A DNA stretch of 23,885 nt from a virus: IMG/VR virus record IMGVR_UViG_3300046321_000042, positions 1-23,885 of that record, one strand, 5' to 3'. Below, in pieces: positions 8,352-23,885 of this stretch. Both the position numbers and the translations under genes were made by a program. Position 1 is the stretch's first letter; every line of letters begins with the position of its first letter. Below the pieces are notes generated by a model. It did not search any database. It saw nothing but the letters and a program-made list of their open reading frames with translations, and had not been told where the DNA came from.

Positions 8352-8373
8352 GGGCGGGCTTAACGGCCCGCCC
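8352..8373 (+). terminator. GC-only hairpin after the capsid gene
   Basis: GGGCGGGC (8352-8359) pairs perfectly with GCCCGCCC (8366-8373) across a 6-nt loop TTAACG, 8 bases after the capsid stop. There is no T-run behind it (CTCATCTAATGG follows), so it is not a classical full-strength intrinsic terminator. It may be a partial terminator, or a 3' stabiliser that raises capsid mRNA relative to the genes downstream. Confidence 0.6.
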
Positions 8374-8393
8374 CTCATCTAATGGAGGCCCCC

Positions 8394-8558: not shown

Positions 8559-8563
8559 TTTCT

Positions 8564-9474: not shown

Positions 9475-10073
9475 GTTTCCTAACAATCTGTCAAGAATTG
9501 GCGAAAAGCGTGGGCCTTGAATCGCCTGATTTGGTCATGACCTCGCCGAAACGGGAATGGGCCGAGGCGGTCGTCATGTCAAACGCGGTTGGCGATGAAA
9601 TTGCACGGCGCGTGGATTTTGGCGTTTTACGCAAATCAACGACGCTTGCGGGGGATGGGGTAACGCAAGCTTACACCCTGCCCCCTGACTTTTCACGCAT
9701 TATCCCCGGCATTGGGGTGCAAAGTGCGGGCGCGACTGTTAGGCCGCTCACAAACGCTGAATGGGCGTCGCTGCCCCCCGTTGTGGGTGTGCCCCGCTAT
9801 TTCCTGCTGGAGGCCCGAAGCATTACGCTTTGGCCGTTCATGGCGTTGTCGGCAAGCGCGACCGTGCGCTATCAGTCGCGCAATTGGTGCGGCAATGGGT
9901 CCAACAAGTGGGCATCGGATACCGACGTTGCGCTGGTCGATGAGGAGCTTATGGTAAAGGGCCTGATCGTGCATTGGCGGCGTCAAAAGGGCATGCCTTA
10001 TGAGGATTATGAGGCAGAGTATGAGGCGGCGCTAACCGCCGTTGCGCGCTTTGACGATAGGAGCCGCATTTAA
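9471..10073 (+). CDS. Neck/tail protein, second head-tail connector (200 aa)
   Basis: The N-terminal helix MSFLTICQELAKSVGLESP is the common opening of phage neck or tail tubular A-like proteins. A beta-rich core follows, containing a VTQAYTLPPDFSRIIPG motif (about 63-79) in which a YxLPxDF element is typical of this type (from memory), plus LPPVVGVPRYFLLEARSITLWPF. The C-terminus ends with a charged helix. It lies between the adaptor and the tail nozzle, joined by ATGA at its start and TAATG at its end, so it most likely forms a further ring or side element of the short tail. The exact homologue is not certain. Confidence 0.72.
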   Translation: MSFLTICQELAKSVGLESPDLVMTSPKREWAEAVVMSNAVGDEIARRVDFGVLRKSTTLAGDGVTQAYTLPPDFSRIIPGIGVQSAGATVRPLTNAEWASLPPVVGVPRYFLLEARSITLWPFMALSASATVRYQSRNWCGNGSNKWASDTDVALVDEELMVKGLIVHWRRQKGMPYEDYEAEYEAALTAVARFDDRSRI

Positions 10074-11662
10074 TGCAAGTCCTTCCCAAGCGCAAAGCCC
10101 CGCCAAAGGGGCAGCCGCCAATGCAGCCAGCACAGGCGTTTTCGTTTCCGTCGCCTATGCGCGGGCTTGTGTTGAATGAAAACATTGCGCTGCCCACCCC
10201 CGGCGGCGCGCTGATTTTGGACAACTGGATTTGCACGACTAAGGGCATCAAGGCGCGGGGCGGCACGGCGCTGCATGTCCCTCTTGGCGGTGAAGTTCGG
10301 GCGATGTTCGTCTACCGATCGGGCGGTGTGGAGATTGCCTTTGCGGCAACCGACACGACAATCAGCAACATCTCTGTTTCTGGGATTGTTCCGCCTGCGG
10401 TGAACATTTCAGGCCAGACAAGCGGCGTGTATTCTCACGAGCAATTCGGCACGGCAGGCGGCGATTACCTATATGCGGTGAACGGCACTGACAAAGCGCA
10501 GCTATTCGATGGGGTGACGTGGACGCAGATTGACGGGCTATCAGTGCCAGCTATCACTGGCGTATCGACTTCGCTGTTTTCCAATGTGTGGTCTTTCGCT
10601 AATCGGCTGTTTTTCGTTGAAAAAAACACAATGACGGCGTGGTATTTGCCAGTTGATAGCATTGGGGGGCTGGCGAGTAGTTTTTCACTGGCTGGCATTT
10701 TCAAGCGCGGCGGGTCGCTTCTATTCGGGGCTACATGGTCGATGGATGCAGGCGACGGCCTTGACGATAAGTGCGTGTTTGTCAGCGATCAAGGCGAGGT
10801 CGCCGTTTATGAGGGCACGAACCCCGGTAGCGCTGCGGACTGGCATAAGGCAGGCGTTTACAGCATCACGCCGCCGCTTGGCTCTAAGGGCAAGATGCAG
10901 GCAGGCGGTGATCTGTTGATTGCAACGCAGGTTGGCCTTGTGCCGATCTCGCAGGCGATTTCACGCGACCCCGCTGCGCTTGAATTGGGCGCAGTGACGA
11001 AGAATATTACCCCGCTATGGCAAAAAAAGGCGTTTGAGCTTGGGGCCGGGGCTTGGGAAATTGAGAAATGGCCGTCTGAAAATATCATCATTGTTTCGCA
11101 GCCGGGGGACAATGAGAGGTCCTGCCTTGTGTGCAACCTGCAAACGGGGGCATGGTCTAGGTTCACAGGAATAAGCGTTCAATGCCTGACTTACTTTGAC
11201 GGGTCGGTGATGTTTGGCGGCAAGGATGGGTCGATCTATCGCTTCGAAAGCGGCGGTAGCGATGACACTATTCCATACACCTGCGTTTATTTGGGTCAGC
11301 ACGACCCCATGGCGACGCCGGGAATTGAAAAGACGATTGCGCAAATGCGGGTCACGTTTCAGCTTTCGACCCCCGCTGCGCCTTTCATATCTGCCAAGGT
11401 CAACCACGATCTTGCGATAAGCTCGCCACCTAATGCCGCAACTGAGGAATCAAGCGCAGCCGTTTGGGGTGTTTCCATTTGGGGCGATGCGACTTGGGGC
11501 GGGTCTAGCATTGCGCAGACGCGCGCGCTTTGGTCAGCAATCGGTCGCACGGGCTATGCAATTGCCCCGGAGGTTCAGCTTACATTTGGCAGCATATCCA
11601 AGCCAAAGATTGAGCTTGTTGGTATTGACGCAACTTTCCATGTTGGGGCGATGGTGACATGA
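10073..11662 (+). CDS. Tail nozzle / stabilisation protein (P22 gp10- or T7 gp12-like)
   Basis: The 529-aa product has an N-terminal segment PGGALILDNWICTTKGIKAR (about 43-62), resembling the xGxALxLDNWxxTxxGxxxRxG motif common in podoviral nozzle proteins (from memory). Repeated beta blades with F/W-xN-R/K-LFF elements follow (WSFANRLFFVE at about 180). A Trp/Gly-rich stretch AVWGVSIWGDATWGG lies near residues 463-477. The predicted fold is a beta-propeller plus platform domains. In P22-like phages this protein closes the tail and holds the DNA. It starts at TAATG after the neck gene and ends in ATGA with the GNAT gene. Confidence 0.82.
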   Translation: MQVLPKRKAPPKGQPPMQPAQAFSFPSPMRGLVLNENIALPTPGGALILDNWICTTKGIKARGGTALHVPLGGEVRAMFVYRSGGVEIAFAATDTTISNISVSGIVPPAVNISGQTSGVYSHEQFGTAGGDYLYAVNGTDKAQLFDGVTWTQIDGLSVPAITGVSTSLFSNVWSFANRLFFVEKNTMTAWYLPVDSIGGLASSFSLAGIFKRGGSLLFGATWSMDAGDGLDDKCVFVSDQGEVAVYEGTNPGSAADWHKAGVYSITPPLGSKGKMQAGGDLLIATQVGLVPISQAISRDPAALELGAVTKNITPLWQKKAFELGAGAWEIEKWPSENIIIVSQPGDNERSCLVCNLQTGAWSRFTGISVQCLTYFDGSVMFGGKDGSIYRFESGGSDDTIPYTCVYLGQHDPMATPGIEKTIAQMRVTFQLSTPAAPFISAKVNHDLAISSPPNAATEESSAAVWGVSIWGDATWGGSSIAQTRALWSAIGRTGYAIAPEVQLTFGSISKPKIELVGIDATFHVGAMVT

Positions 11663-12126
11663 CCTATCAAATCAGCATCGAAAACGGCCATGACAACTAT
11701 TCAGAATTGGAGCCAAACTATCGGGCCCATTTCTCCGAAATGCAAGCTCGGCTGATGGCCTCCGGCGTGCAAATTGGCGGATATAACCCACGTCTTGACC
11801 TGTATTTTGAAGCATTTGACGGCAAATGGTTGATAAATTACGTGGTTAGGTTTAAAGGTAAGGCTGTAGGGCATAGCAACGTCTATGTGACAGCGGACAT
11901 GCACACCAGTGAGAAAATTGCGTCTGAAGATACGATCTATATCCTTCCAGAACATCGGAACGGGATCGGCAAAAAGCTCGTGCAATTTATACTTGTGGAC
12001 CTTCAGTCGCGCGGTGTTAAGCGTGTGCAAATTTCACCAGTTACAGATCTTCGTGTGGCGAAAATATGGCGGCGGATGGGCTTTACTGATGTGGCGAGCC
12101 TAATGTCTTACACCTTCAAGGATTAG
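11659..12126 (+). CDS. GNAT-family N-acetyltransferase
   Basis: This 155-aa protein has the core acetyl-CoA-binding signature. Strand beta4 DTIYILPEHR (91-100) is followed by the pyrophosphate-binding loop R100-N-G-I-G104 and helix KKLVQFILVDLQ. A later VAKIWRRMGF (133-142) matches the closing GNAT motif. The enzyme should transfer an acetyl group to an amine on an unknown substrate. It lies between the nozzle and ejection-protein genes, overlapping the nozzle stop by ATGA, and its end carries the AAGGA ribosome binding site for the next gene, so it is wired into the late operon. By hand count positions 11701-12120 are about 48% GC against about 59% in the preceding 11401-11580, which suggests later acquisition. 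GNAT genes are known at similar places in podoviruses, with function untested (from memory). Confidence 0.88.
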   Translation: MTYQISIENGHDNYSELEPNYRAHFSEMQARLMASGVQIGGYNPRLDLYFEAFDGKWLINYVVRFKGKAVGHSNVYVTADMHTSEKIASEDTIYILPEHRNGIGKKLVQFILVDLQSRGVKRVQISPVTDLRVAKIWRRMGFTDVASLMSYTFKD

Positions 12127-12130
12127 CGAT

Positions 12131-13114
12131 ATGTGCGTTTCTGCCCCAGCACCCACCCCGCCTAAAGAGACCAGCGCTGCAACGACGGGCGGGAATGTCA
12201 CTACTGGCATCACCAACGCATGGCTGCAAAACATGGACGAAACGGGGCCGGATGGGTCGCGCACGTTCACGCAAAGTGGCACGCAGTCGGTGACAGACCC
12301 CTACACGGGCATGACGTACCAAGTCCCTCGCTTCTCGGTCAACACCACGCTTTCCGCCGCGCAGCAGGGTATTAAGACGCAGCAGGACGCGGCAAGCCTG
12401 AACTTGGCAACGCTGGGGAATAACCTTTCCGGCACCCTCGGCAAACAGTTGACGGGCAACTTCTCGCTTGGCAATGAGGCAATCGAAAGCCGCCTGATGG
12501 ATTTGGGCCGCAAGCGGCTTGACCCGATGTTTGCGCAGCGCGATGAGGATTTGCGGACGCGGCTTTCAAACCAAGGCATTAAGGCCGGGTCGCAGGCTTA
12601 CGACCGCGAAATGAACAACCAAGGCCAGCAGCAGAATGACGCCTACAATCAGCTTTTGCTGACCGGGCGCGGGCAGGCCGCGAACGAATTGCTGACCGAG
12701 GATAACCAACGGATCAACCAGATTTCCGCGCTGTTGGGTGGTGGGCAGGTTTCGCAGCCGAACTTCCAGACATCGGCGGGCATTGGCGGGATTGCGGGCA
12801 CTGATAACGGCGCGATCATTGCGAATAGCGATGCGGCGCGGCAAGCGGCTTGGCAGCAGAAACAAGCATCCTTGGGTTCTATGCTTGGCGGTATCGGCGG
12901 GCTCTTCTCGCTATCCGATGAAAACGCCAAGACGGATAAGAAGAAGATCGGCGAAACCAAGGACGGCATGGGGCTTTACAGTTTCAAATACAAAGGTTCA
13001 CCGAAAACCGAAGTCGGGCTTATGGCTCAAGAGGTTCAGAAGAAAAAGCCGGGGGCTGTTCGCAAGGGCAGCGACGGTTTCCTTCGCGTTGATTATGGAA
13101 GGGCGCTGCAATGA
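12131..13114 (+). CDS. Internal virion protein with C-terminal S74-like chaperone domain
   Basis: The first 250 residues of this 327-aa protein are typical of a podoviral ejection protein: MCVSAPAPTP, then DPYTGMTYQVPRFSVNTTLS, and long Gln/Asn-rich amphipathic helices (RDEDLRTRLSNQGIKAGSQA). A Gly-rich linker (about 249-258) leads to residues 262-327, which look like a short S74 intramolecular chaperone: SDENAKTDKKKIG, LYSFKYKG, VGLMAQEVQ, PGAV and DGFLRVDYGRAL. In phage endosialidases this domain trims itself just before a Ser, using a Ser/Lys pair five residues apart. S262 and K267 have that spacing. The S74 motif is clear. Whether it cleaves here is an inference. The gene overlaps the next by ATGA. 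Confidence 0.78.
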   Translation: MCVSAPAPTPPKETSAATTGGNVTTGITNAWLQNMDETGPDGSRTFTQSGTQSVTDPYTGMTYQVPRFSVNTTLSAAQQGIKTQQDAASLNLATLGNNLSGTLGKQLTGNFSLGNEAIESRLMDLGRKRLDPMFAQRDEDLRTRLSNQGIKAGSQAYDREMNNQGQQQNDAYNQLLLTGRGQAANELLTEDNQRINQISALLGGGQVSQPNFQTSAGIGGIAGTDNGAIIANSDAARQAAWQQKQASLGSMLGGIGGLFSLSDENAKTDKKKIGETKDGMGLYSFKYKGSPKTEVGLMAQEVQKKKPGAVRKGSDGFLRVDYGRALQ

Positions 13115-15054
13115 CTTTCGCGCAGGGTATGTTTTCGATTGATCAAAAAGCAACCCCGGATCAGGTCGCCAAAAAGCGGGCAATGATTGCGGCGCTTATG
13201 CCCCGGTATGGGTCGGCCAAATATGTAGGCGAGGGTCTTGGGCAGTTGGCGCATGGCGTCATGACTGGCATTCAAAACCGCAAGTTGGATAAGGTCGAAG
13301 GCGAAGGTGCGGCGGGTGCGAATGATATTTTCAGCCGCTTGATGGGCCGTCAAGGCGCTGCTCAAGGTGGCGGCGCGGGGCCCATGTCGGTTCTCGGCAT
13401 CCCGCCAGAGACAAGCCAGCCAATGCCAGCGGCGGATAGCGGCATGATCGGCGCGCAAGGTGGCGGCTCATTTGGGCTTCCTGCTGCGGATGCTGGCGGC
13501 ATGCAAGGCGGCATGTCTATGCCCCCGCAAAAGTCTGGCGGGCTGGACTTCGGTGGTCTTGAGCAACAATATGGATTGCCAGCGGGCTATCTTGCCAACG
13601 TCGCGCAAATCGAAAGCGGCGGCGATCCAAACGCGCAGAACCCCAATTCCAGCGCGGGGGGGATGTTTCAGTTTATTGACAGCACGGCCAAGCAATACGG
13701 TGTCACTGATCGGTTTGACCCGACGCAGGCAGCAAATGGCGCGGCGCGGCTGGCTGCGGATAACGCGGCTTCACTGCGCAAGGTCTTGGGGCGTGAGCCT
13801 ACGGCGGGCGAGTTGTATCTTGCCCATCAGCAGGGTGCGGGCGGCGCGTCTAAGCTGCTGTCCAACCCTAACGCGCTGGCGTCTGCTATTGTCGGCTCTG
13901 AGGCCGTGCGATTGAACGGCGGCACGGACAATATGACGGCGGGCGAGTTTGCGAACAAATGGGTTAGCAAGGTAGGCGGTGGCCAAGGCGGCGAATACGC
14001 CCCGCCACAAATACCAATGACAGAGCTTTACGCCGCGATGCAAAGCCCGTGGATGAATGATCAACAGCGGGCAATGATCGGCTCGATGATTGATCAGCAA
14101 ACCCAAGCCGCCGATCCTATGCAGCAAATGCAGATGCAAAAGGCGCGGATTGAGCTTGATCAAATGCAGAACCCCGGCGCGCCTAAGCCGATTGAGGTTG
14201 GCGGCGTGTTGCTTGATCCGACGACCTATCAGCCTATCTTTGATAGTCGGGTGCAGGCGGGCGGTGATGGGTTCACCCTCGGCGCTGGGCAGCAACGCTA
14301 TGACGCGCAAGGCAATATGATTGCAAGCGGGCCTGAGGCGGTTGCACCCCGGCCTCTCAATCCGCAAGAGCGTCAACAGTGGGGCATCCCCGCAACTGAC
14401 ACCCGGCCATATGCGATTGAGTCCGGCAAGCCACCGCAATTGATCGGCGGTGGCGGCGTTACGGTCAATAATGACATCGGCGGCGGCGGTAAGTTTGAGG
14501 AAGCCTTCGCCAAGGGGGATGCTGACACCGTTGCATCTGTTTACAATTCCGGCTTGTCTGCGCAGCGCAATTTGGGGCGGATTGATCAGCTTGAAGGGCT
14601 TTTGTCCCAGTCCCCAACCGGGATGCAAGGCGCGCTTGCACAGGCCGCTGGCGAATGGGGCATAAACACCGAGGGTCTCGATGCGGTGCAATCCGCGCAG
14701 GCTATTATCAACTCTCTCGTTCCTGAGCAGCGGCAACCCGGTTCCGGCCCCATGTCTGACGCTGACTTGGCGCTGTTTAAGCAATCGCTTCCCCGCATTA
14801 TCAACCAGCCGGGGGGGAACAAGACCATCGTGGACACTATGCGGGCGATTGCTCAGTATGACGCGGAAGGGGCTTCCATCGTGCAGCGGCTTCGGTCTGG
14901 CGAGTTGACGCGCCCGCAGGCGTTTGAGGCGCTTCAATCCCGCGCTAACCCGCTTTCATCGGCGCAAGGCACAGCAGGCCAGCCAGCGCAACCGACTGGG
15001 GCGGGCATCCCTGACGATCTAACGCCTGAAGAAAAAGCTATGTTGGGGTTGTAA
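13111..15054 (+). CDS. Internal virion protein with lytic transglycosylase (SLT) domain
   Basis: This 647-aa ejection protein probably opens the peptidoglycan during genome entry. The enzymatic domain (about 147-285) has the SLT signature: LEQQYGLPAGYLANVAQIES with catalytic E168, then NSSAGGMFQFIDSTAKQYG and ELYLAHQQGAGG. N-terminal residues 1-145 are low-complexity and Gly/Met-rich after a short helical start. A Gln/Met-rich helical region (about 335-360) and a helical C-terminal domain (about 470-605) follow; the latter resembles a segment seen in other podoviral internal proteins (from memory). It starts in an ATGA overlap and ends two bases before the next gene. No signal peptide is present, consistent with packaging inside the head. 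Confidence 0.86.
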   Translation: MTFAQGMFSIDQKATPDQVAKKRAMIAALMPRYGSAKYVGEGLGQLAHGVMTGIQNRKLDKVEGEGAAGANDIFSRLMGRQGAAQGGGAGPMSVLGIPPETSQPMPAADSGMIGAQGGGSFGLPAADAGGMQGGMSMPPQKSGGLDFGGLEQQYGLPAGYLANVAQIESGGDPNAQNPNSSAGGMFQFIDSTAKQYGVTDRFDPTQAANGAARLAADNAASLRKVLGREPTAGELYLAHQQGAGGASKLLSNPNALASAIVGSEAVRLNGGTDNMTAGEFANKWVSKVGGGQGGEYAPPQIPMTELYAAMQSPWMNDQQRAMIGSMIDQQTQAADPMQQMQMQKARIELDQMQNPGAPKPIEVGGVLLDPTTYQPIFDSRVQAGGDGFTLGAGQQRYDAQGNMIASGPEAVAPRPLNPQERQQWGIPATDTRPYAIESGKPPQLIGGGGVTVNNDIGGGGKFEEAFAKGDADTVASVYNSGLSAQRNLGRIDQLEGLLSQSPTGMQGALAQAAGEWGINTEGLDAVQSAQAIINSLVPEQRQPGSGPMSDADLALFKQSLPRIINQPGGNKTIVDTMRAIAQYDAEGASIVQRLRSGELTRPQAFEALQSRANPLSSAQGTAGQPAQPTGAGIPDDLTPEEKAMLGL

Positions 15055-15056
15055 TA

Positions 15057-17702
15057 ATGGGTATCACCGACGAGCAATTCAAAGCAGCGGCGCGCAAGGC
15101 ATATGAGGCGGGGGATGTTAAGACCGCCCGCAGTTTGCTTGCGCGGGTATCGAAGGCCCCCATTCAACATCAAGCCCCTGTAATTGGGACGGATCAGCGC
15201 GCGGCCAATGTAACAGCCAATGCAGATCGGCAGGCGCAAATTGACGCCGCCGCAATGCAGGGTATGGGAGCGCAGCCGACCAAGAGCTTTAACGACCAAT
15301 GGGGCGAAAACTTTGCCAGAGTTTTGCAGCCTATTGCAAACTTCGGTAATCGGGCGATGGAAAGCGCGACCTTTGGCGTTCTTGGCGATGAATATCGTGC
15401 CGCCGTCCAAAGTGTTTTGCCGGGGGTGGATTATGAGGGGGCGCTTGCAAATGAGCGCGCGCAAGAGGCCAGCATGGGCTTGCCTGCCCAGATCGGCGCT
15501 GATGTTCTTGGCGGCCTTGCGCCAGGGAAGCTGGGCGTCAATCTAATGCAAGGTGCGTCTAGCCTTGGCGGTTCAGTGTTGCGCGGCATGGGCTTAGGCA
15601 CAGCGGGCGGCGCGGCTCAGGGCTGGATGGAAGGCGAAGGCGGGGCTGATAACCGCGCGGTAGGATCGGCCATAGGCGGCACTCTGGGCGGCGTTATTGG
15701 CGGCGCGACGCCTCTTGTTGGCGCACTCGGTCGGCAGGCCGTTCGATCTGTGTCTGATTCCGCGCGCGGGTCACGTTTGGGGGCTGAGATTGGGGGGGCT
15801 GTCGGGACAAGCGGAAAGACTGGCCGTGTGTTGGCTGATCTGATTGGGCGTGAAGACCCCCGCGCCATGCGAGAGGCTCTAGTCAAATCAGGGCAAGGCG
15901 CAATGCTTGGCGATGCAAGCCGTAGCGCCACGGGTGCGCTTGATATGGCAATGCAAACGCCCGTTCCCGGCGCTCAAATCGCGTCGCAGCGGATTAATGA
16001 CCGGGCCAAGGGGGCATATGGTGACATTGCGCGCATTCTTGATGAAACAATGGGCGCTCCTGTTGGCCTGAATTCGGCGCAATCGGCTATCCGTTCGGAA
16101 ACGGCGGCAAATCGAGGTTGGCTCTACGATCAAGCGTTTAGCAAGGATATTGATTGGCGGTCTCCTGCTGGCATGGAATTGCGCGGGCTGTTGCAGACAA
16201 CGCCCAAAGACGTGATGTCACTTGCCGCGAAGAATGCGAGCATGAAGGCCCGTGCGCCTTATGTGCCTGATTCCGCATATGCCGATGAATTTGCGGACAC
16301 GGTGACTTCCAAGCCGGGGGCATTGGCTGGCAATAATGCAGAACGGCAGGAACTCAACGCCTTCTTTTCGGAATATGACCGGGTTTCTGGCGGTTCTCGC
16401 TTTAAGCGGCCAACATCACACACGATCAAGGCTTTGGGCGGGGTTGACCCTTCATCGTCGGCAGGGCAAGAGCTTTACGCCTTGGGGATCAACCCAAGAA
16501 CCGCGCCGGGTTTGTTCCGTCGTGGCGGCATGGGTGATCTGGACAATCTCGACATTTCCAAGTTTCCAGACACCATGACTGGCGACGGGACCGGGAATTA
16601 TGCCGACCGCAACGCGGTGATTGGGGCTATCGTTTCGGAGGCCAAGGGCCAGCCTTTGCTTGCGTCCGAAGATATGATTGACAGCGCCACATTTTCAGAA
16701 CTTGACGAACTTTTTCCACAATATGAGGCGCGGCGTGCAGCGCTCACCCGTGAAGATCGAGCCATGGCGCGCGGGCCAACTGCCCCTGCGCAAGCGGTGG
16801 ATACCGTGCCGATGCAAAGCATCCGTGATGTTGACCAAATCAAGCGTGCGCTTGACGAGGTTAACCGGACAAATGCGGGGCAAGGCCTCATGGGTGGTCA
16901 GACTGAATACGGCGTTGAGGCAGGCAAGCGGGCGCGTGAAATCCGCGATCTGCTGACTGAAATCAGCCCCGAATATAAGGACGCCCTTGCGGCGGGGGCC
17001 GACACTATCAGCCGGACTAAAGGCGTAGAATTTGGGGCAACAGTCTTGCGGCCCCAAACCACACGCGAAACCGTTGCCGATATGGTGAAAAACTCCACGC
17101 CGGGGGAAATGACGGCAATTCGCCAAGGCTTGAGGTCGCAGATTGACGAAACCCTCGCCAATGTTCGGGCCGTTGCGTCCGATCAGAATGTTGACGCCCG
17201 CGCGGCTTCGACGGCTTGGAGTAACATGTCTTCACCCGCTGCCCGGTCAAAAATGCAGCTTCTTTTGGGCGATGCGTGGCCTAAACTTGAAAAGCAACTG
17301 GACGAGGCCGGGGCGGCAATTGGGCTTCGCGCCAATACCTCGGCTAATAGCGCCACAGCAGGACGGCAATTCGCCAAAGAAGCAGTTGACGCCGTGAACG
17401 CCCCCGGCGCGCTTCGTCGTGGTGAGGTTATCAAGGCGGGGCGAAACCTGATAGGAGGCGTCACTGGGGGCTCTCCTGACGCTATTGCGCGCGCAAGCGC
17501 AGACACTCGCAGCGAATTGGCGGATGTTCTGACCCGTCAAGGCGGAACCGCGCCGCAAAGCCTAAACGCCATTCTCAAGGCTTTGATAGATAACCCGCAA
17601 AACCTTGACGCTGGCAAAACACTCGAACAAATCGTTAGAATGGCTGGCATGGGCGCTATCCCTGCTGCGGTTCGCGGCGTTAACAACATGAAAGGCCAAT
17701 AA
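15057..17702 (+). CDS. Large internal virion (DNA ejection) protein, 881 aa
   Basis: The N-terminus is a small helical repeat (EQFKAAARKAYEAGDVKTARSLL, residues 7-29), often seen at the start of alphaproteobacterial phage ejection proteins. Residues about 145-225 are Gly-zipper, membrane-active sequence (IGADVLGG, GLGTAGGAAQG, SAIGGTLGGVIGGATPLVGALG), suited to building a channel across the cell envelope. The rest is mostly helical. Residues about 440-560 look like a separate inserted module (DPSSSAGQELYALGINPRTA, LFRRGGMGDLDNLD, NYADRNAVIGAIVSEAKG). The flanking parts (up to about 400 and from about 585, IRDVDQIKRALDEVN) read as one continuous ejection-protein domain. It lies directly after the transglycosylase protein, the usual podoviral order. 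Confidence 0.8.
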   Translation: MGITDEQFKAAARKAYEAGDVKTARSLLARVSKAPIQHQAPVIGTDQRAANVTANADRQAQIDAAAMQGMGAQPTKSFNDQWGENFARVLQPIANFGNRAMESATFGVLGDEYRAAVQSVLPGVDYEGALANERAQEASMGLPAQIGADVLGGLAPGKLGVNLMQGASSLGGSVLRGMGLGTAGGAAQGWMEGEGGADNRAVGSAIGGTLGGVIGGATPLVGALGRQAVRSVSDSARGSRLGAEIGGAVGTSGKTGRVLADLIGREDPRAMREALVKSGQGAMLGDASRSATGALDMAMQTPVPGAQIASQRINDRAKGAYGDIARILDETMGAPVGLNSAQSAIRSETAANRGWLYDQAFSKDIDWRSPAGMELRGLLQTTPKDVMSLAAKNASMKARAPYVPDSAYADEFADTVTSKPGALAGNNAERQELNAFFSEYDRVSGGSRFKRPTSHTIKALGGVDPSSSAGQELYALGINPRTAPGLFRRGGMGDLDNLDISKFPDTMTGDGTGNYADRNAVIGAIVSEAKGQPLLASEDMIDSATFSELDELFPQYEARRAALTREDRAMARGPTAPAQAVDTVPMQSIRDVDQIKRALDEVNRTNAGQGLMGGQTEYGVEAGKRAREIRDLLTEISPEYKDALAAGADTISRTKGVEFGATVLRPQTTRETVADMVKNSTPGEMTAIRQGLRSQIDETLANVRAVASDQNVDARAASTAWSNMSSPAARSKMQLLLGDAWPKLEKQLDEAGAAIGLRANTSANSATAGRQFAKEAVDAVNAPGALRRGEVIKAGRNLIGGVTGGSPDAIARASADTRSELADVLTRQGGTAPQSLNAILKALIDNPQNLDAGKTLEQIVRMAGMGAIPAAVRGVNNMKGQ

Positions 17703-17703
17703 C

Positions 17704-19680
17704 ATGCCAAGATCAGGCCCCGGCGTATACTCGAAGCCATCCGGCACGACGCCAACGAACGGCGATGACATTGAGGCCCCAGCATACAACCTGCTGATGG
17801 ACGATATCGTTGCCGACCTAAACACGCCGCGCCCTATCGTTGCGGGCGGCACGGGCGCGTCTACAGTGCAAGGTGCAAGGGATGCGCTGGGCATTTCAAC
17901 CCCCTTCGCCACCCGCGCGGCTGCAATCGCGGCAACCATTCCCGTAACGGTCAACGCCATTGCGGTTTTGCACAACGGGGTGTGGTGTAAATATGTCTAC
18001 AACCCGGCGGGCACGGCGCTAACCACGGCGGGCGCGCGGAATTGGTCGCCAGTGGCCCCCGTGTATCTTGAGCATTGGGGGGTTGATGGTGACGGGCTGG
18101 CTGATGACACCGCGAAAGTCATCGCCGCAACGACAGCAGGATTCCCCATTGTTAATGCATCCTCGCGGAAATATCGCCTAACCAATCAAGTCGTTCTGAA
18201 CGACGTTAAATTGATTGGTGAAGGCTATCAGTTCTCAAGCATGAATGTGTCGTCTGTCGCTGACTTATCGGGGTCGGTGTTCATTTGCGACTTCCTGCCA
18301 GCAACTGCGGAAAGCATGTTCCATTTGGGGCGTGGCGGGATGATCGAAAGCCTGATGGGCTATAGCAATCGCCAAACTGCAACACGCCCAGCCGCATGGG
18401 TCCCAGTTGTAACGCCGTGGTTTGTGACATCTGGTCAATTCGCGGACACTTCGCGCCCCGGTCGAGATGAAAAAAGCGGTGCGCGTAAGGTGATGTTCCT
18501 TGAGTTTACCCACGGGCTTCGACTTCGCACTGGTGGTGAGCAGGGTATCTACGAGCAGGTTTACGGCAACCCGCTTACGGTTGGCCTTGAGGCGGACGCG
18601 AACTATGATGTCACCCGCTTCATTGACTTCCATTTCTGGCCGTTTGGCGGCAATACAAACGTTTGGCAGGTAAACGAACGTGTGTGGACGCTGAATAACC
18701 TGAAAGCATTTAGGTTTGGGCGGGTTGACGGGCTATTGATGCGCGGCTGCTTTACGATTGGCGCGGCGCAAGCGGTGGAGTTTTACCCGTCGGAGACCAC
18801 GACGGCACTTGTTGGCGGGGCGACGACCAACTTCCACATGACGGATTGCTATCTTGATGCAAACAATACATCCCTTAAAGTTACGGGCACCTACGCCGCC
18901 GGGTGGCGTGTTTCCGGCCATATTGTTGGCGGCACGATGGCGCACTATGATAATGCTGCCGAGGAAACCCTAGTTGAAGCCGAGAACATTGTAATCGAGA
19001 GCGACTTCAAGGAAATCCAAATGGTTGGGGTCCGCATGGTTGCTTCGGGCGGCAATCGTCGCGGCGGCTATGGCAAGGTCACGGCGGCAAATGGCATATT
19101 GAACATGAATGGTTGCTCGGTTAACGAATGGGACATTGACGCGCTAGGAACCCCTGCTTTCGTTCAATCCGGTGCCAATAGCGCAATCAACTTGGGTGAC
19201 ATGCAGTTCTTTGCGGCAACCAATACGCCGATGAACATGGTGGGGAAAAACATTCTTAGCGGGCGGGTTCGCGTCAAGACAAACCAAATCTCTTGGACGC
19301 CGACACTGACATTCGCCACCCCCGGCAACTTGTCAGTGGCATATGGTGCAGTTAGTGGCGCGTATCGCTTGGACGGCGACTTGCTGAATATCAAGTGCCG
19401 CCTTGTTGCGACGCCAACATTCACAACTGCGTCGGGGGCGCTGCGTATTGGTGGCTTCCCGGTTATTCCTGCGCTATCTGCGACCCCCACTGAGTTCGCG
19501 GTAGGTTTCTTGACAAACGTGGCCATGGGAACCCGATATGAGGTTGCCGGGCGGTACACACCCGGGCTTGGATATTTCGAGTTCTTTTTGACTGGCGCAA
19601 GTGCAACGTCATTGGCAGCAACAGACATCACCAGCGGAACATCGGTCAGTATGCTGTTTGAAGCCACGGTTTGGCTCTAA
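17704..19680 (+). CDS. Tail spike with beta-helix receptor-binding domain
   Basis: This 658-aa protein begins with a virion-attachment region (MPRSGPGVYSKPSG, then YNLLMDDIVADLN and VAGGTGASTVQGARDALG, residues 1-63) like podoviral tail fibres. Residues about 121-170 (LEHWGVDGDGLADDTAKVIA) match the start of pectate-lyase-like beta-helices, where G-(V/A)-x-G-D-G-x-x-D-D-T is the hallmark. The middle is Gly/Asn/Thr-rich with repeating strands, consistent with a trimeric beta-helix that binds or cuts surface polysaccharide. From W531 (SWTPTLTF) a C-terminal beta-sandwich begins. The catalytic residues cannot be assigned by reading. It is the last virion gene before the lysis module and starts 1 base after the preceding stop. 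Confidence 0.82.
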   Translation: MPRSGPGVYSKPSGTTPTNGDDIEAPAYNLLMDDIVADLNTPRPIVAGGTGASTVQGARDALGISTPFATRAAAIAATIPVTVNAIAVLHNGVWCKYVYNPAGTALTTAGARNWSPVAPVYLEHWGVDGDGLADDTAKVIAATTAGFPIVNASSRKYRLTNQVVLNDVKLIGEGYQFSSMNVSSVADLSGSVFICDFLPATAESMFHLGRGGMIESLMGYSNRQTATRPAAWVPVVTPWFVTSGQFADTSRPGRDEKSGARKVMFLEFTHGLRLRTGGEQGIYEQVYGNPLTVGLEADANYDVTRFIDFHFWPFGGNTNVWQVNERVWTLNNLKAFRFGRVDGLLMRGCFTIGAAQAVEFYPSETTTALVGGATTNFHMTDCYLDANNTSLKVTGTYAAGWRVSGHIVGGTMAHYDNAAEETLVEAENIVIESDFKEIQMVGVRMVASGGNRRGGYGKVTAANGILNMNGCSVNEWDIDALGTPAFVQSGANSAINLGDMQFFAATNTPMNMVGKNILSGRVRVKTNQISWTPTLTFATPGNLSVAYGAVSGAYRLDGDLLNIKCRLVATPTFTTASGALRIGGFPVIPALSATPTEFAVGFLTNVAMGTRYEVAGRYTPGLGYFEFFLTGASATSLAATDITSGTSVSMLFEATVWL

Positions 19681-19681
19681 C

Positions 19682-20020
19682 ATGATGTCCATGATCTGGG
19701 CAGAAATCATGACGCCTAGCAATCAGGTGGGCCCGTTAGATCGGGCTTACCGCCGGGCGGTGGTCGGCATTGGGCACGCGGTTCTGGGGGCCGCGTGTGT
19801 TGCCGGGTTGCCGGGGTATGGCATTTGGTTGGCGGCGGGATTGGCGCTGGCCTACTGGCTGGTCAAAGAGCGCGGCGATATGTTTCGCGGCGGGGCATGG
19901 GCTGACGGGGCAGAGGACACCGTTATGGTGGCCTTGGGCGCATGGTATGGGCCTTGGTGGTGGCCTGCCGTTGTGCTGGCATGTGGGGGCTATCTCATGG
20001 TTATGGGGGCGCGGCGGTGA
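19682..20020 (+). CDS. Multi-pass membrane protein of unknown function (112 aa)
   Basis: I take the start as ATG 19682, immediately after the tail spike stop. In-frame ATGs also occur at 19685, 19691 and 19709, and none has a clear ribosome binding site. Hydrophobic segments lie at about residues 25-42, 46-62 and 92-109 (WWWPAVVLACGGYLMVMG), with a charged loop KERGDMFRGGAWADGAEDT between the second and third. No named domain is recognised. It overlaps the next membrane-protein gene by GTGA. The position next to the endolysin makes a role in lysis or host membrane modification possible, but this is inference. Confidence 0.7.
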   Translation: MMSMIWAEIMTPSNQVGPLDRAYRRAVVGIGHAVLGAACVAGLPGYGIWLAAGLALAYWLVKERGDMFRGGAWADGAEDTVMVALGAWYGPWWWPAVVLACGGYLMVMGARR

Positions 20021-20460
20021 AAGACTGGTTCGTACCCCCGGCATCCCGCAACCTAAGGCGGCACGGAGATAGTCAGACTGTCGTCCAGCTTGCCTTTTTA
20101 GGTATGTCTGTGGCATTCTGGGTCGCAGCAAAGATGCGGGAAGCCCCGGTAATGGACGAGCGGATTTATGGCAAAGTCGTGGGGGCGTATCCGGCAGAAT
20201 GGTGGGCGACGTCGATCATGCTGGCATCAGGGCTTTACCTTGCCGGGATCATTATTAACGGCTCTTGGCGCTGGTCTGCGGCGCTGCGGTTGGTTGGGGC
20301 TTTCTGGCATGGCGCAACGCTTTCCCTGTTCACCTACGGCGGCGCAACGGCGGAATATGGCGACCCGATTATGATATGGGGCGGCACGGCACTAGGGATG
20401 CACGTTGCATTTATCTGCTGGAATATCGGTGATTTTGCGCGGGCGGTGCGGCATGGCTGA
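20017..20460 (+). CDS. Four-segment membrane protein of unknown function (147 aa)
   Basis: The gene starts at GTG 20017 in a GTGA overlap with the preceding stop. An upstream in-frame ATG at 19942 would lie deep inside the previous gene and is less likely. The soluble start KDWFVPPASRNLRRHGDSQT is followed by hydrophobic stretches at about 21-39, 62-80, 87-107 and 116-136. Pairs of small membrane proteins of this kind occur in alphaproteobacterial phages beside lysis genes (from memory), without known function. Its end overlaps the next gene by 8 bases. It could be a pinholin, a superinfection-exclusion factor or a structural helper; the sequence does not decide. Confidence 0.72.
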   Translation: MKDWFVPPASRNLRRHGDSQTVVQLAFLGMSVAFWVAAKMREAPVMDERIYGKVVGAYPAEWWATSIMLASGLYLAGIIINGSWRWSAALRLVGAFWHGATLSLFTYGGATAEYGDPIMIWGGTALGMHVAFICWNIGDFARAVRHG

Positions 20461-20695
20461 TTCGGACTTGATTTCGCAAATCCCGGCCTTGATCGAAAAG
20501 GGCGGATTGCCTGCGGTTGTCGGCGGTGCGCTGTTGGCCCTGCTATACAAGTTCGGCAAAAAGGAAAGCCCCGATACGCAGCTTGCCGACGCCCTGAAAG
20601 AATTAACGGGCGAAGTTATGAAAATGCGGCTAGAAATGACGGAACGGTTCACGCGCATCGAAAGCGACGTGCGGCATTTGGAGCAGAAAAAATGA
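20453..20695 (+). CDS. Holin-like protein: one membrane segment plus coiled coil (80 aa)
   Basis: ATG 20453 overlaps the end of the preceding gene and gives MADSDLISQIPALIEKGG. A single hydrophobic segment at about 19-33 (LPAVVGGALLALLYKF) comes next, then a charged tail with a coiled coil (LADALKELTGEVMKMRLEMTERF to RHLEQKK). One membrane helix with a coiled-coil domain is the build of small phage lysis proteins such as XhlA-like factors, though there the order is reversed. A further in-frame ATG at 20405 lies inside the upstream gene and is rejected as the start. Its TGA overlaps the next ATG (ATGA). Holin is a reasonable but unproven call. Confidence 0.65.
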   Translation: MADSDLISQIPALIEKGGLPAVVGGALLALLYKFGKKESPDTQLADALKELTGEVMKMRLEMTERFTRIESDVRHLEQKK

Positions 20696-20862
20696 ATGTC
20701 TTGCGTCAAGGGCCGTGCAACCCCGAAGCTATCCCCAAAATGACGCCGGGGGAGGTTCATGCTGAATTGGTGCGGCTGGCTCACAACTACGGGCTATGCG
20801 AGGCCCCATATACGGCGGCGGTAATGCACGCGGCGGCAAAATTGATCGAGGCAGGGCTATGA
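20692..20862 (+). CDS. Small protein of unknown function before the endolysin (56 aa)
   Basis: This short frame starts in an ATGA overlap with the preceding gene and ends at TGA 20860-20862, one base before the endolysin start. The product, MNVLRQGPCNPEAI then TPGEVHAELVRLAHNYGL and a helical AAVMHAAAKLIEAGL end, is soluble and mostly helical, with two Cys. I recognise no family. Its tight packing between two real genes, with no gap left over, is the main support. Its end supplies the GGCAGGG region that serves as the endolysin ribosome binding site. Confidence 0.6.
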   Translation: MNVLRQGPCNPEAIPKMTPGEVHAELVRLAHNYGLCEAPYTAAVMHAAAKLIEAGL

Positions 20863-20863
20863 A

Positions 20864-21544
20864 ATGACACGCGCAGAAATCTACATCCCCCGCATTTTGA
20901 AGCACGAAGGCGGGTTTGTTAACCACCCGCGCGACCCCGGCGGCGCTACCAATCGCGGCGTCACCATTGGCACCCTGAAACGGCTTGGCATTGATGTGGA
21001 CGGCGACGGCGATAGCGACATAACCGATCTACGCCACCTTCGGGAATCGGACGCCGTGCGAGTGTTCAAGACGTTCTATGCCGACAAGGTGCAAGCCGAT
21101 TTACTGCCGATCGGTCTTGATTATGCCATGACTGACTTTGCGGTCAACTCCGGGCCGGGGCGGGCGGCGCAACACCTGCAACGGATTTTAGGCGTGGAAG
21201 CCGACGGCGATATTGGGCCAAAGACATTGGCAAAGGTTGCCGACTGCGACCCCAAGGCGCTGATCACCGCGCTTTGCGATAGCCGGTTGCGGTTTTTGCG
21301 CGGGCTTGAAACATGGCGCGACTTCGGGCGGGGCTGGCAATCGCGGGTTGATGCGGTTCGTCGGGATGCGTTGGCGGATGCCGATCAAAACGCAATCAAA
21401 CAAACTACCCCGCAAAACCAATCGGTTGCAGGCGAAAAGCCAAAAGACGGCGCAACCAATCAAACAAAGCCGCGCGGCTTTGTCGCTGCAATCATTGCAA
21501 TCATTGTCGGCTTGATCGGCTTCAAAATCAGCAAAGGGGATTAA
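20864..21544 (+). CDS. Endolysin, glycoside hydrolase 108 family, with C-terminal membrane anchor
   Basis: The 226-aa protein has the GH108 signature near the start, LKHEGGFVNHPRDPGGATNR, with catalytic Glu at position 15 (HEGGF). A peptidoglycan-binding domain follows (about 82-165, with DFAVNSGPGRAAQHLQ and GVEADGDIGPKTL), the usual partner of GH108. It should cut the glycan strands of host peptidoglycan at the end of infection. Residues about 168-203 are a hydrophilic linker. Residues 205-221 (GFVAAIIAIIVGLIGFK) are a clear transmembrane helix ending in KISKGD. There is no N-terminal signal or SAR domain. A C-terminal tail anchor would hold the enzyme on a membrane until release. Confidence 0.92.
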   Translation: MTRAEIYIPRILKHEGGFVNHPRDPGGATNRGVTIGTLKRLGIDVDGDGDSDITDLRHLRESDAVRVFKTFYADKVQADLLPIGLDYAMTDFAVNSGPGRAAQHLQRILGVEADGDIGPKTLAKVADCDPKALITALCDSRLRFLRGLETWRDFGRGWQSRVDAVRRDALADADQNAIKQTTPQNQSVAGEKPKDGATNQTKPRGFVAAIIAIIVGLIGFKISKGD

Positions 21545-21546
21545 TC

Positions 21547-21750
21547 ATGTGGCAAGGTCGCTTTCTGATCTACGTTTTGGGGCTCGGCGCGTCTGGGCTG
21601 GCAATGTCTGGCTATGCCGACTTTAACGCGGAAACGTGGATGCTCGATATTCACCCGTTCAACCTTCGCGAATTCGCACTGACTGCGACGGCGGCGGTAG
21701 GCAATGCCTTGGCGGCGGTGGCATCTATTCGCGGGTGGCGGCGCAAATGA
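21547..21750 (+). CDS. Small two-segment membrane protein, holin candidate (67 aa)
   Basis: The protein has a first hydrophobic segment at about 6-21 (FLIYVLGLGASGLAMSG), a soluble ADFNAETWMLDIHPFNLRE loop, and a second segment at about 42-60 (ALTATAAVGNALAAVASI), then a basic end GWRRK. Two membrane helices with a positive C-terminus, placed two bases after the endolysin and overlapping the spanin gene by ATGA, fit a class II or III holin. Similar small proteins stand beside endolysins in alphaproteobacterial prophages (from memory). The 80-aa protein upstream is a competing holin candidate. Confidence 0.68.
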   Translation: MWQGRFLIYVLGLGASGLAMSGYADFNAETWMLDIHPFNLREFALTATAAVGNALAAVASIRGWRRK

Positions 21751-21974
21751 CTTGGCTTATCCCCGCCCCCATCCGCCGCGCGCTAGCGTGGGCCGTAGCA
21801 GGCCTTGCCGCTGTCTGGGCTATCCGTGCCGGGGCAAAGCGAGAGGCGCGCGCTGAGACGGCTCTGGAAGCGGCGAGCGAATACAAACTCACAATGGAGG
21901 CAATGGGCCGTGTGGAAATTGATGATAGCGTCGATGATATTCAGCGGTGGTTGCGTGAGCGCGCAAAACGATAG
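21747..21974 (+). CDS. Inner-membrane spanin (Rz-like)
   Basis: ATG 21747 (ATGA overlap with the preceding stop) gives a 75-aa protein. Its N-terminal membrane helix lies at about 12-28 (ALAWAVAGLAAVWAIRAGA) and is followed by a charged helical periplasmic part ending in DDIQRWLRERAKR. This is the standard i-spanin layout. The call is supported by an overlapping lipoprotein frame that begins inside its 3' end, as in Rz/Rz1 pairs. The protein would span the periplasm and pair with the outer-membrane spanin to fuse the two membranes at lysis. An upstream in-frame ATG at 21636 lies in the preceding gene and is not used. Confidence 0.75.
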   Translation: MTWLIPAPIRRALAWAVAGLAAVWAIRAGAKREARAETALEAASEYKLTMEAMGRVEIDDSVDDIQRWLRERAKR

Positions 21975-22101
21975 CGCGATCTGCGACGGAACAACGGCGG
22001 CACGGTCTGAACATGCCGCCGCTTTGGCCGATGATGGCGGGCCGCGATCTATGGTGACGGGGGCGCGGCTTATTCGGTTGGTGGATGCGGGGTGTCGTTA
22101 A
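21910..22101 (+). CDS. Outer-membrane lipoprotein spanin (Rz1-like), overlapping
   Basis: The frame shifted relative to the i-spanin has GTG 21910 with GGAGG at 21896-21900, 9 bases before it. The 63-aa product begins with a short hydrophobic leader and a lipobox-like IFSGG-C (Cys15). This would leave a lipid-anchored 48-residue chain containing ICDGTTAARSEHAAALADDGG and ending GARLIRLVDAGCR. The lipobox is not canonical (Ser rather than Leu at -3), but it sits where Rz1 start regions lie. The first 65 bases overlap the i-spanin gene and the rest continues past it. The stop is TAA 22099-22101, interlocked with the stop of the opposite-strand gene. Confidence 0.65.
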   Translation: MWKLMIASMIFSGGCVSAQNDSAICDGTTAARSEHAAALADDGGPRSMVTGARLIRLVDAGCR

Positions 22102-22457
22102 GCATCTGGGCCAAGCCTTGCCTGTAATTTGTTAAGTGTCTCATCAAAATCAACAATAATACCAAACCATCTAACTCGCGCGCCTTGGCCGTCGCAGTAG
22201 TCAACTGCTATTTTTGCAGTAGATGGGGTTCTCCGCCACCGTAGTTCATTGTTTAACCACGGCGAGACGCTGATTTTGTCAATCTCGCGTGGTATGTGGG
22301 TAAGTGTCGGGGCATCATCTGGCATAAATATTGATACTACAGGCTTTAACAATACTCTCGCAAAGTGGCGCTCTTTGATGGCATCAAACACCTTCCGATC
22401 AAAAGCATCAAAACTCATATTGTAACCATCGATTATCAAGGCTATGTCTCCTTTCAT
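22098..22457 (-). CDS. Uncharacterised AT-rich protein ending the leftward cassette (119 aa)
   Basis: The longest frame starts at ATG 22457, but an AAGGAG ribosome binding site lies inside it and points to TTG 22439 (8-nt spacing), giving 113 residues. The product starts (M)KGDIALIIDGYNMSFDAFDRK, then FARVLLKPVVSIFMPDDA and VRWFGIIVDFDETLNKLQ. It is a soluble alpha/beta protein with no Cys cluster or membrane segment. The IALIIDGYN start recalls NYN/PIN-type nuclease openings, but the protein is too short and the remaining acidic motifs are not evident, so I assign no function. By hand count the gene is about 45% GC (161 of 360), while sampled late genes are about 60%. It looks acquired. Confidence 0.6.
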   Translation of the reverse strand: MKGDIALIIDGYNMSFDAFDRKVFDAIKERHFARVLLKPVVSIFMPDDAPTLTHIPREIDKISVSPWLNNELRWRRTPSTAKIAVDYCDGQGARVRWFGIIVDFDETLNKLQARLGPDA

Positions 22458-22506
22458 TCCGGTGTGATTACATGCCCGTGGTGGCGATTTATGAGGCTGC
22501 TAGGCG

Positions 22507-22782
22507 TTAGCACCAAATCGGCAAGCGACTAGCAACCGTGCGAGGTTCGCAAGGCCACCCCATATAATTTCCGCCCGGTTGTCTGTCCGTGAATAAGAGC
22601 CGCTTTCGCTGCAATTCTACATGCCGTTGAATATGTCCGGCGTCTGCATCTGGCGACATATGCCCGGAAACGATTGAACGGGTGGCAAACATGGCAATTT
22701 CAGCAGCTTCAATGCGGCGATAGGCGTCTGCACAATCAAACCAATCGCGCGGGCGGTGCGTAAAGTCCGGTTTCTTTGTCAT
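22507..22782 (-). CDS. Uncharacterised small protein of the leftward cassette (91 aa)
   Basis: ATG 22782 overlaps the stop of the preceding gene in the cassette (ATGA), the usual sign of coupled translation. The product has a charged N-terminus (MTKKPDFTHRPRDWFDCADAY), a predicted helix RRIEAAEIAMFATRSI, a His/Glu/Arg-rich segment (HIQRHVELQRKRLLF) and an ending with GGNYMGWPCEPRT. It has three Cys, well separated. No family is recognised. A 49-base gap separates it from the AT-rich gene that follows. Confidence 0.6.
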   Translation of the reverse strand: MTKKPDFTHRPRDWFDCADAYRRIEAAEIAMFATRSIVSGHMSPDADAGHIQRHVELQRKRLLFTDRQPGGNYMGWPCEPRTVASRLPIWC

Positions 22783-23135
22783 TCCGTCACCCCATTAAGC
22801 GCCGCATTTGCCGCCGTCCGCGCTGCGTCCTCTCTTTCCTGAGCCGATGCCATTGTCGCGGCAACATCGCTTTCGCGCCGTGCCTCCTCTGCGGTGGTAA
22901 ATGCGTCAAACACCGCCTGAATTTTAGCCTCGTGATCGGTGGCGATGATGTGTTGCAAGCGCCACCAATGCCGAAGCCCCGCTTTGTCGCTGTAGCCTGC
23001 ATCCGGCCATTCAAGCCCTGTCGCCACATCAATTCCGTTAAACCGCAGCGTGAACGGCCTGCGTTGGTTGCGGTAGCTGATAACCATGTCCCAACCATCG
23101 GGTAGGTTGCGCGTGATTGTGTGTGAAAACCTCAT
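22779..23135 (-). CDS. Uncharacterised protein of the leftward cassette (118 aa)
   Basis: The start ATG 23135 overlaps the regulator stop (ATGA), and TGGAGCGG upstream, inside the regulator gene, can serve as ribosome binding site. The N-terminal half is mixed beta with aromatic residues (NLPDGWDMVISYRNQRRPFT, WPDAGYSDKAGLRHWWRLQH). The C-terminal half (about 72-118) is a highly charged helix with many Ala, Glu and Arg, ending in NAALNGVTE. The split into a compact domain and a long helix suggests a protein-binding factor, but I do not recognise the family. Confidence 0.6.
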   Translation of the reverse strand: MRFSHTITRNLPDGWDMVISYRNQRRPFTLRFNGIDVATGLEWPDAGYSDKAGLRHWWRLQHIIATDHEAKIQAVFDAFTTAEEARRESDVAATMASAQEREDAARTAANAALNGVTE

Positions 23136-23458
23136 TCCGCCGCTCCATATTTATATTCGATCCAATGCGATCCAGGCCCATGTAATTTGTTTTGCAGTGC
23201 CACAAGCCGATCTAGTGTTGGCAGCTTGTCATATTGGTGCCAAGCCCCGCCGCCATAGCAATGCGCAATCCTGACCCATGCTTTCGGCGCTATTCCGGTC
23301 AACATCAGCCCCATCATGGCATAGGCATAGAGCGGATCAACCGTATTGCCCGCAACGATAGCCTGCACCGTGCGCAGGCCTATATCCAGCACGTCGGCAA
23401 GGGCCTGTTGCGTCATGCCCATGCCTTCATATGCTGCGCGGAATTCGGCGGGGGTCAT
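23132..23458 (-). CDS. Helix-turn-helix transcriptional regulator (108 aa)
   Basis: Residues 16-37 carry an XRE/Cro-type helix-turn-helix: TQQALADVLDI, turn, GLRTVQAIVAG, with the usual MTQQxLADxLxIxxRTVQ pattern. The preceding helix TPAEFRAAYEGMG is typical of small phage regulators. The C-terminal part (about 54-108) contains HCYGGGAWHQYDKLPTL and may mediate dimerisation; it is not recognised. The gene lies in the leftward cassette, overlapping genes on both sides by ATGA. The palindromic TGACAT cluster about 250 bases upstream is a plausible binding site, which would make it an autoregulator of this divergent region. That link is inference. Confidence 0.85.
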   Translation of the reverse strand: MTPAEFRAAYEGMGMTQQALADVLDIGLRTVQAIVAGNTVDPLYAYAMMGLMLTGIAPKAWVRIAHCYGGGAWHQYDKLPTLDRLVALQNKLHGPGSHWIEYKYGAAE

Positions 23459-23619
23459 TTGGTGGACTCGTTTTCAACAGCAAGGGCGTCGATTACATCA
23501 CTATGGTCGCACCCCATGCGGTCACATATGATTGCAATAATGAATTCTGTGGATTTTTCTGGAAAATCATCATCAGCTTGCCCCCATGCCGCCATGATTT
23601 CTCGTTGCTTGCTGGTCAT
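23455..23619 (-). CDS. Small acidic protein, first gene of the leftward cassette (54 aa)
   Basis: ATG 23619 has a strong AGGAG ribosome binding site 8 bases upstream on the same strand, and the TGA stop overlaps the start of the helix-turn-helix gene (ATGA). The 54-residue product is acidic and helical (MTSKQREIMAAWGQADDDF, then STEFIIAIICDRMGCDHSDV), ending DALAVENESTK, with two Cys. The strong ribosome binding site and exact coupling make it more credible than a chance frame. No family is recognised; a regulator or partner of the downstream helix-turn-helix protein is only a guess. Confidence 0.75.
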   Translation of the reverse strand: MTSKQREIMAAWGQADDDFPEKSTEFIIAIICDRMGCDHSDVIDALAVENESTK

Positions 23620-23719
23620 TCTCAATTCTCCTATTCACGTTACCACCACATATACCGCAACAGCCGCGCAATGCAAGCGCAATAACGCAACCGTCGCGCT
23701 TTTCTAATGTCAGAAACCC

Positions 23720-23763
23720 ACCGCATTTTTGACATAAGCCGCGCGTTATGTCAAAAATGCGGT
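23720..23763. repeat. Perfect 18-bp inverted repeat, operator candidate
   Basis: The left arm ACCGCATTTTTGACATAA (23720-23737) is the exact reverse complement of 23746-23763, around an 8-nt spacer GCCGCGCG. Each arm carries TTGACAT. In RNA it would form a long hairpin followed by TTTTG on the plus strand, but the sequence-identical arms next to a promoter fit a repressor operator better. The terminator reading remains possible. Confidence 0.7.
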
Positions 23764-23767
23764 TTTG

Positions 23768-23796
23768 TTGACATGGCGAGCGCGTGGTGGTATAGT
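23768..23796 (+). promoter_or_regulatory. Rightward sigma-70-like promoter
   Basis: TTGACA (23768-23773) and TATAGT (23791-23796) are separated by exactly 17 bp, close to ideal consensus (5 of 6 at -10, 6 of 6 at -35). Transcription should begin near 23803 and read into the frame that leaves the window. The -35 box is the fourth copy of the TGACAT motif, and the palindrome ends 4 bases upstream, so a protein bound there would block this promoter. Confidence 0.75.
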
Positions 23797-23829
23797 TTGC
23801 GGGCGCGATGAACTTGCGGGGATAGCTGG

Positions 23830-23885
23830 ATGAAGCCCCGGACAGGCCCGTTGATATTGCATGGTATAGGCGTGCCATATGGATT
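23830..23885 (+). CDS. Start of a rightward gene, truncated by the window edge
   Basis: ATG 23830 is preceded by GGGGA with 8-base spacing and lies about 27 bases after the predicted transcription start. The visible 18 codons, MKPRTGPLILHGIGVPYG, stay open to the right edge. Too little is visible to name a product. It may be the first gene of an early or replication unit, since it is driven by its own strong promoter. A short earlier ATG (ATGAACTTGCGGGGATAG) stops after 5 codons and does not count as a gene. Confidence 0.4.
   Translation, partial: MKPRTGPLILHGIGVPYG

Follow-up and report, generated by a model that had tools for sequence, protein, structure and literature searches.

A palindrome and TGACAT motif copies beside a strong predicted promoter in a podovirus, with a core and promoter shared by a second, different phage

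Results

The locus and its phage

The window, by which is meant the whole stretch of DNA that was analysed, is a linear virus record of 23,885 bases and represents a podovirus fragment with terminase, SU10-type portal, capsid, tail, and lysis genes. The portal protein is 53-65% identical to those of Sulfitobacter phages pCB2047-A/C, phiGT1, EBPR podovirus 2, and Rhizobium phage N2. Two further contigs (G001 and G002) belong to the same virus; they overlap the left part of the window at 99.99-100% identity and add 15.2 kb upstream, which brings the known sequence of the phage to 39,053 bases (the genomes of relatives measure about 40-44 kb). In this upstream sequence (contig L168), positions 10714-11547 encode a protein of 277 aa that contains a long (Cys-Ser-x)n tract (CSGCSDCSG...) built on a 9-nt repeat unit, and contig G001 ends within this repeat; the C-terminal part of the protein is related to a pentapeptide-type protein encoded at L168 3152-3655, and both match phrog_31265.

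The palindrome studied here is flanked by a leftward cassette of five genes (22098-23619) on one side and by the end of the record on the other, and the sequence features of the region, read directly from the DNA, are collected in Table 1. A probable overlapping i-spanin/o-spanin pair (21747-22101, lipobox SGGC) closes the lysis cassette, and its stop codon overlaps the end of the leftward cassette. The helix-turn-helix protein encoded by the second cassette gene matched HTH_3 at an E value of 4e-4, which is below the Pfam cut-off, and phrog_14076 (transcriptional regulator) at 1e-5. Neither this protein nor its neighbour had relatives in the viral contigs or plasmids searched, and among annotated phages the helix-turn-helix protein gave only a weak match in a Paracoccus phage. 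An XafT-like match of the same protein was rejected as weak and generic, with 14 of 14 control genomes matching too, and an AlphaFold model made from the single sequence (pLDDT 57) was not used.

Table 1. Features at the right end of the window and their counterparts in contig L221 of the second phage
Feature	Positions	Strand	Remarks
Remaining cassette, three ORFs without known family	22098-23135	-	convergent with the late/lysis operon
XRE-type helix-turn-helix protein, cassette gene 2	23132-23458	-	108 aa; ligand proposed in the preliminary description
First cassette gene	23458-23619	-	54 aa; RBS AGGAG; codon score gene-like
Weak candidate leftward promoter (PL)	23649-23676	-	TTGCAT-16-TATATG; by eye, missed by the promoter scan
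Site A	23707-23712	-	TGACAT; half-site TTTCTGACAT (23716-23707), 1 mismatch to TTTTTGACAT
Inverted repeat	23720-23763		arms ACCGCATTTTTGACATAA / TTATGTCAAAAATGCGGT, 18 bp each; spacer GCCGCGCG
Conserved core	23729-23753		TTGACATAA-GCCGCGCG-TTATGTCA; holds sites B (23730) and C (23748); L221 9607-9631
Block difference	23754-23758		AAAAT in the window, GGTTTTC in L221; sole difference right of the core
Identical stretch	23759-23885	+	127 nt; L221 9639-9765; common end point of both contigs
Promoter PR	23768-23796	+	TTGACA, 17-nt spacer, TATAGT, extended -10 TG; unchanged in L221
Possible rightward ORF, start	23830-23885	+	MKPRTGPLILHGIGVPYG...; runs off the record; codon score gives no support for coding

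Palindrome, motif copies, and promoter

A preliminary description of this DNA had placed four copies of one motif within 68 bp, with the inner pair lying in a perfect 18-bp inverted repeat, and both statements were borne out. The ATGTCA copies are those at 23707 and 23748, the TGACAT copies those at 23730 and 23769, and the two arms (23720-23737 and 23746-23763) are 100% complementary across 8 nt. The orientation of the copies alternates (-, +, -, +) at centre-to-centre distances of 23, 18, and 21 bp, and all four share the longer half-site TT-N-YTGACAT. Eight places in the window lie within one mismatch of TTTTTGACAT, and four of the eight are these copies.

The longest perfect arm found in 30 dinucleotide shuffles of the whole window was 8-12 bp, compared to the 18 bp observed, and 300 shuffles contained at most two TGACAT/ATGTCA motifs per 68 bp, compared to four here. 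TGACAT is over-represented window-wide (20 copies vs 9.9 expected). Palindromes with 8-bp arms are not rare alone, with six in the window and 4.6 per shuffle, and the statistical weight therefore rests on the full 18-bp arm and the flanking copies.

The last copy had also been described as the -35 box of a rightward promoter, and this was confirmed, as TTGACA (23768-23773) overlaps site D, the TGACAT at 23769-23774. The promoter matches the consensus at 11 of 12 positions and ranked first among 14 promoter hits in the part of the window that was scanned (4000-23885). The layout is divergent, with the leftward genes starting at 23619, and the rightward unit leaves the record after about 80 nt. 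No relatives of the possible rightward ORF were found, and no frame scores as coding when the 127 nt common to both contigs are read as protein on either strand; in L221, an open minus-strand frame runs into thyX. A perfect 9-bp inverted pair (TACCACCAC / GTGGTGGTA) was also observed at 23641-23649 and 23784-23792, one member lying just downstream of the candidate leftward -10 and the other running into the rightward -10.

A second phage shares the core and the promoter

A pattern search with the last bases of the window returned one more contig, L221, which belongs to a tailed phage (G022) that carries a tape-measure-like gene (686 aa), genes for a sliding clamp and thyX, and three tRNAs, and that displays no colinear homology to the window phage. 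The last 165 bases of L221 align to 23723-23885 at 96% identity, and nothing aligns to the left of 23723. The core, TTGACATAAGCCGCGCGTTATGTCA, is identical in the two, and to its left a single base differs (T/C at 23728). L221 is without site A and without the outer 10 bp of the arms, which leaves palindrome arms of 8 bp in that phage; both the sharing and the missing outer arms are direct observations. Core and promoter are not equally spaced in the two phages, at 15 vs 17 nt, a difference of 2 bp.

Outside the palindrome region, what G022 has in common with the window phage is limited to a tail-spike domain, the N-terminal portion of one early gene, and a weak match in the lysis region, and these make a common host likely and exchange plausible. 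The tail-spike domain (17902-19072 in the window, 1631-2798 in contig L230 of G022) is 74% identical over 473 aa and about 73% identical in DNA over 1.2 kb. Its presence in a podovirus and in the otherwise different G022 points, at the level of sequence, to exchange of a receptor-binding module.

The two contigs end exactly 127 nt after their last difference, as expected when an assembler breaks at a segment common to two genomes. We take the shared 127-nt end to be a k = 127 assembly-graph branch, this value of k being one of the metaSPAdes settings; a literature check on this setting gave no match. Such a break requires just two upstream contexts, and the window phage and G022 supply both.

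Searches for further examples gave little. The core pattern TGACAT-N12-ATGTCA, with up to one mismatch, occurred in none of the 25 records searched, most of which were family relatives, and exact matches to the core pattern in viral and genome contigs came only from unrelated A+T-rich phages and one Saprospiraceae contig. The matches inspected overlap an ATG-TCA start codon and were thus ascribed to chance, and a peak at spacer 6 among the viral-contig matches was due to a few repeated phage families. An Rfam search returned nothing credible.

Discussion

An exchanged control module

The palindrome region probably serves ordinary gene regulation. The reading that we favour, with some reserve, is that it would be the left edge of a transcription-control module exchanged between two different phages, probably of the same host. 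The core and PR are identical in L221 although all sequence further left differs, and the recurrence of core and promoter in a second phage contig suits a regulatory module. In the mechanism that we infer for protein binding and regulation, a putative dimeric regulator most likely binds the core operator, TGACATAA-N8-TTATGTCA, whose midpoint lies about 62 bp upstream from the predicted start, and in the window phage this regulator would also occupy the further copies, one at 23707 and one overlapping the -35 box. The strong host-type promoter that follows the core operator would drive the rightward unit beyond the record, and binding of the putative regulator would set its activity. This regulator is likely to be either encoded by the shared module or supplied by the host, and the join produced by the exchange would lie at the left edge of the operator.

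The preliminary description had proposed an operator set between divergent units, with the helix-turn-helix protein of the leftward cassette as its natural ligand. The symmetric sites beside a strong promoter, and the recurrence of the core and PR, support the operator part of this proposal; the proposed ligand is disfavoured, and the perfect 18-bp arms and the copy at 23707 are not conserved in the second phage. G022 keeps the same core and promoter next to thyX and is without a relative of the helix-turn-helix cassette, and the helix-turn-helix protein is therefore not the obvious ligand. A second divergent intergenic region in the upstream sequence (L168 3655-3770) is a stronger candidate for the main switch between lysis and lysogeny in this phage; it separates a leftward early gene from a small Cro-like gene on its right (phrog_664, DNA-binding, E 1e-3) and has TGACAT copies nearby at 3636 and 3671.

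Under the control-module reading, the perfect 18-bp arms are probably local to this phage and would stem from template-switch correction of a quasi-palindrome. Template switching makes quasi-palindromes perfect (PMC7202029), and the change of 5 vs 7 nt in a single block is consistent with such an event having perfected the palindrome. Because only two sequences are compared, the direction of the AAAAT/GGTTTTC change is one that we infer. Several observations stand against a control module: the 2-bp difference in spacing is not what a helix-phased activator site usually shows, a palindrome with 8-bp arms is not rare by chance, a fully identical 8-nt spacer exceeds what an operator needs, although recent common descent explains it, and CATAA-N8-TTATG resembles Xer sites.

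Should the control-module reading be correct, the promoter-operator edge is the same in two unrelated, co-occurring phages, the operator marks the join, and the most striking feature of a region, here a perfect 18-bp palindrome, can be its least conserved part. Altogether, we regard the finding as real but probably an ordinary regulatory region, the interest of which lies in its sharing between unrelated phages and in the possible reading as a recombination site.

Alternative explanations

The main alternative, though unlikely, is that the core is an Xer/dif-like site, that is, a tyrosine-recombinase core of two inverted 11-bp arms around an 8-nt centre, which might integrate an integrase-less phage at the host dif (as an IMEX) or resolve dimers; the shared right flank might then be host DNA or an Xer-mobilised module. 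The arms TTTTGACATAA/TTATGTCAAAA match dif XerD half-sites, TTATGTCAAAA agreeing at 10 of 11 positions with TTATGTCAAAT of Burkholderia and at 9 of 11 with the E. coli half-site (both from PMC2731167), and they carry the ATAA/TTAT inner ends of dif/Xer sites; the alphaproteobacterial XerD arms in the same table fit worse, at 6-9 of 11. Every site in that table has a 6-nt centre, most of them low in G+C (PMC2731167), whereas the centre here is 8 nt long and all G+C (GCCGCGCG). The integrase-less Burkholderia phage phiE12-2 uses the attP AATTTGACATAAGGTAAA (PMC2920897), and a Legionella dif/att site has perfectly symmetric arms (PMC9765430). The motif CATAA-N(4-12)-TTATG has a single occurrence in each phage (39 kb of the window phage, and G022), in either case at the core, and homology to G022 stops at the core's left edge. 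Neither a tyrosine nor a serine recombinase turned up in the known G022 sequence or in the 39,053 known bases of the window phage, the genome of which has a gap in its sequence, although an integrase was present in 10 of the 16 records searched.

The right flank and the contig ends argue against a host junction. Such a junction predicts a constant right flank, but 23754-23758 differs between the contigs, and an empty attB context would have made the contigs break 127 nt past the core's left edge rather than past 23758. It is rather doubtful that two or more unrelated tailed phages sharing a host, both without a detected integrase, use host Xer recombinases to attach through an Xer-type core with an 8-nt centre to the same host or exchanged DNA. 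Were the site of Xer type after all, the tailed podoviruses of this group would join the elements that make use of the host's system for resolving chromosome dimers. Lox- and telomere-type sites fit the arms and spacer loosely; no recombinase was found, and no protelomerase was noticed.

It is similarly doubtful that the core has no function of its own, in which case it would be a weak palindrome arising by chance or inheritance, the 18-bp form would be a by-product of template switching during replication, and only the promoter would matter. The second phage does not have the outer arms, and one block of 5 vs 7 nt makes up the difference there; chance alone is expected to yield palindromes with 8-bp arms, and template switches are able to perfect quasi-palindromes; however, this explanation does not account for the extra copies at 23707 and 23769 or for the preserved core.

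Very unlikely, in our view, is the edge of a mobile element (an IS or similar) lying beside the same target palindrome in two phages, with the shared 127 nt as the end of the element. Elements of the IS1202 family insert 5 bp from Xer sites (PMC10132070), identical DNA does stand in two unrelated phages, and the contigs break at the start of shared DNA; however, the shared part is without the TGT start of IS1202 elements, codon scores show no transposase start, and there was no credible match to known plasmids or phages.

Most improbable is the alternative named in the preliminary description, hairpin-dependent termination, in the form of an intrinsic (bidirectional) terminator shielding PR from late read-through: the long hairpin is stable on both strands (z -4.0 and -4.8), is followed by TTTTGTT on the plus strand, and was flagged by the terminator scan, and the late operon has no clear terminator where it meets the convergent cassette, but the scan performed at chance level (29 found vs 24.9 expected), the U-tract is interrupted, the stem is mostly A+T, the flanking copies and the promoter overlap are left unexplained, and in L221, where the arms shrink to 8 bp, the fold is no better than shuffles (z -0.75 vs -4.0 in the window), and a terminator or long-hairpin function is thus not a conserved property.

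Comparison with known systems

The podoviruses pCB2047-A/C, phiGT1, and EBPR podovirus 2 are colinear with the phage described here in the terminase, SU10-type portal, capsid, and tail genes, at ~50-75% identity, and none of these searched relatives carries the palindrome or promoter region of the window. The IMEX sites of phiE12-2 and Legionella LME-1 are similar to the core in their inverted arms, CATAA...TTATG ends, XerD-like half-sites, and intergenic position, and, as far as the known phage sequence goes, in that no phage integrase was found; they differ in that dif/IMEX centres are 6 nt and A+T-rich, compared to 8 nt and all G+C here, and in that the flank of the right arm partly differs between our two contigs.

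The arrangement favoured here, a control module, is closest in kind to operators of the lambda OR/OL and P22 immI Arc/Mnt type, with which the region shares repeated, symmetric short sites, a divergent promoter region, and a copy over the -35 box. Dissimilar from the lambda and P22 operators, the sites lie about 18-23 bp apart in alternating orientation, the repressor is putative, and another candidate Cro-like switch is encoded elsewhere in the genome.

Within the phage group, the nearest counterpart is a palindrome in G017 (L211 13698-13753), a relative with a similar portal protein, where a long perfect inverted repeat likewise occupies a divergent intergenic region; its sequence is unrelated to that of the window, its spacer is 12 nt, and its flanking genes are ribbon-helix-helix-like. 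The G017 palindrome spans 56 bp with perfect 22-bp arms (TAAACTATATAGCACGGTGCTG) and lies exactly between two divergent Arc/ribbon-helix-helix-like genes, the small products of which resemble each other (MARTDPQINIRLP / MARTDRQINLRLP). Each arm contains TATATAG and AGCACGGTGCT, giving the appearance of a doubled promoter-operator. The occurrence in G017 of a palindrome with 22-bp arms between divergent regulator-like genes indicates that phages of this group can carry long perfect palindromes at divergent junctions.
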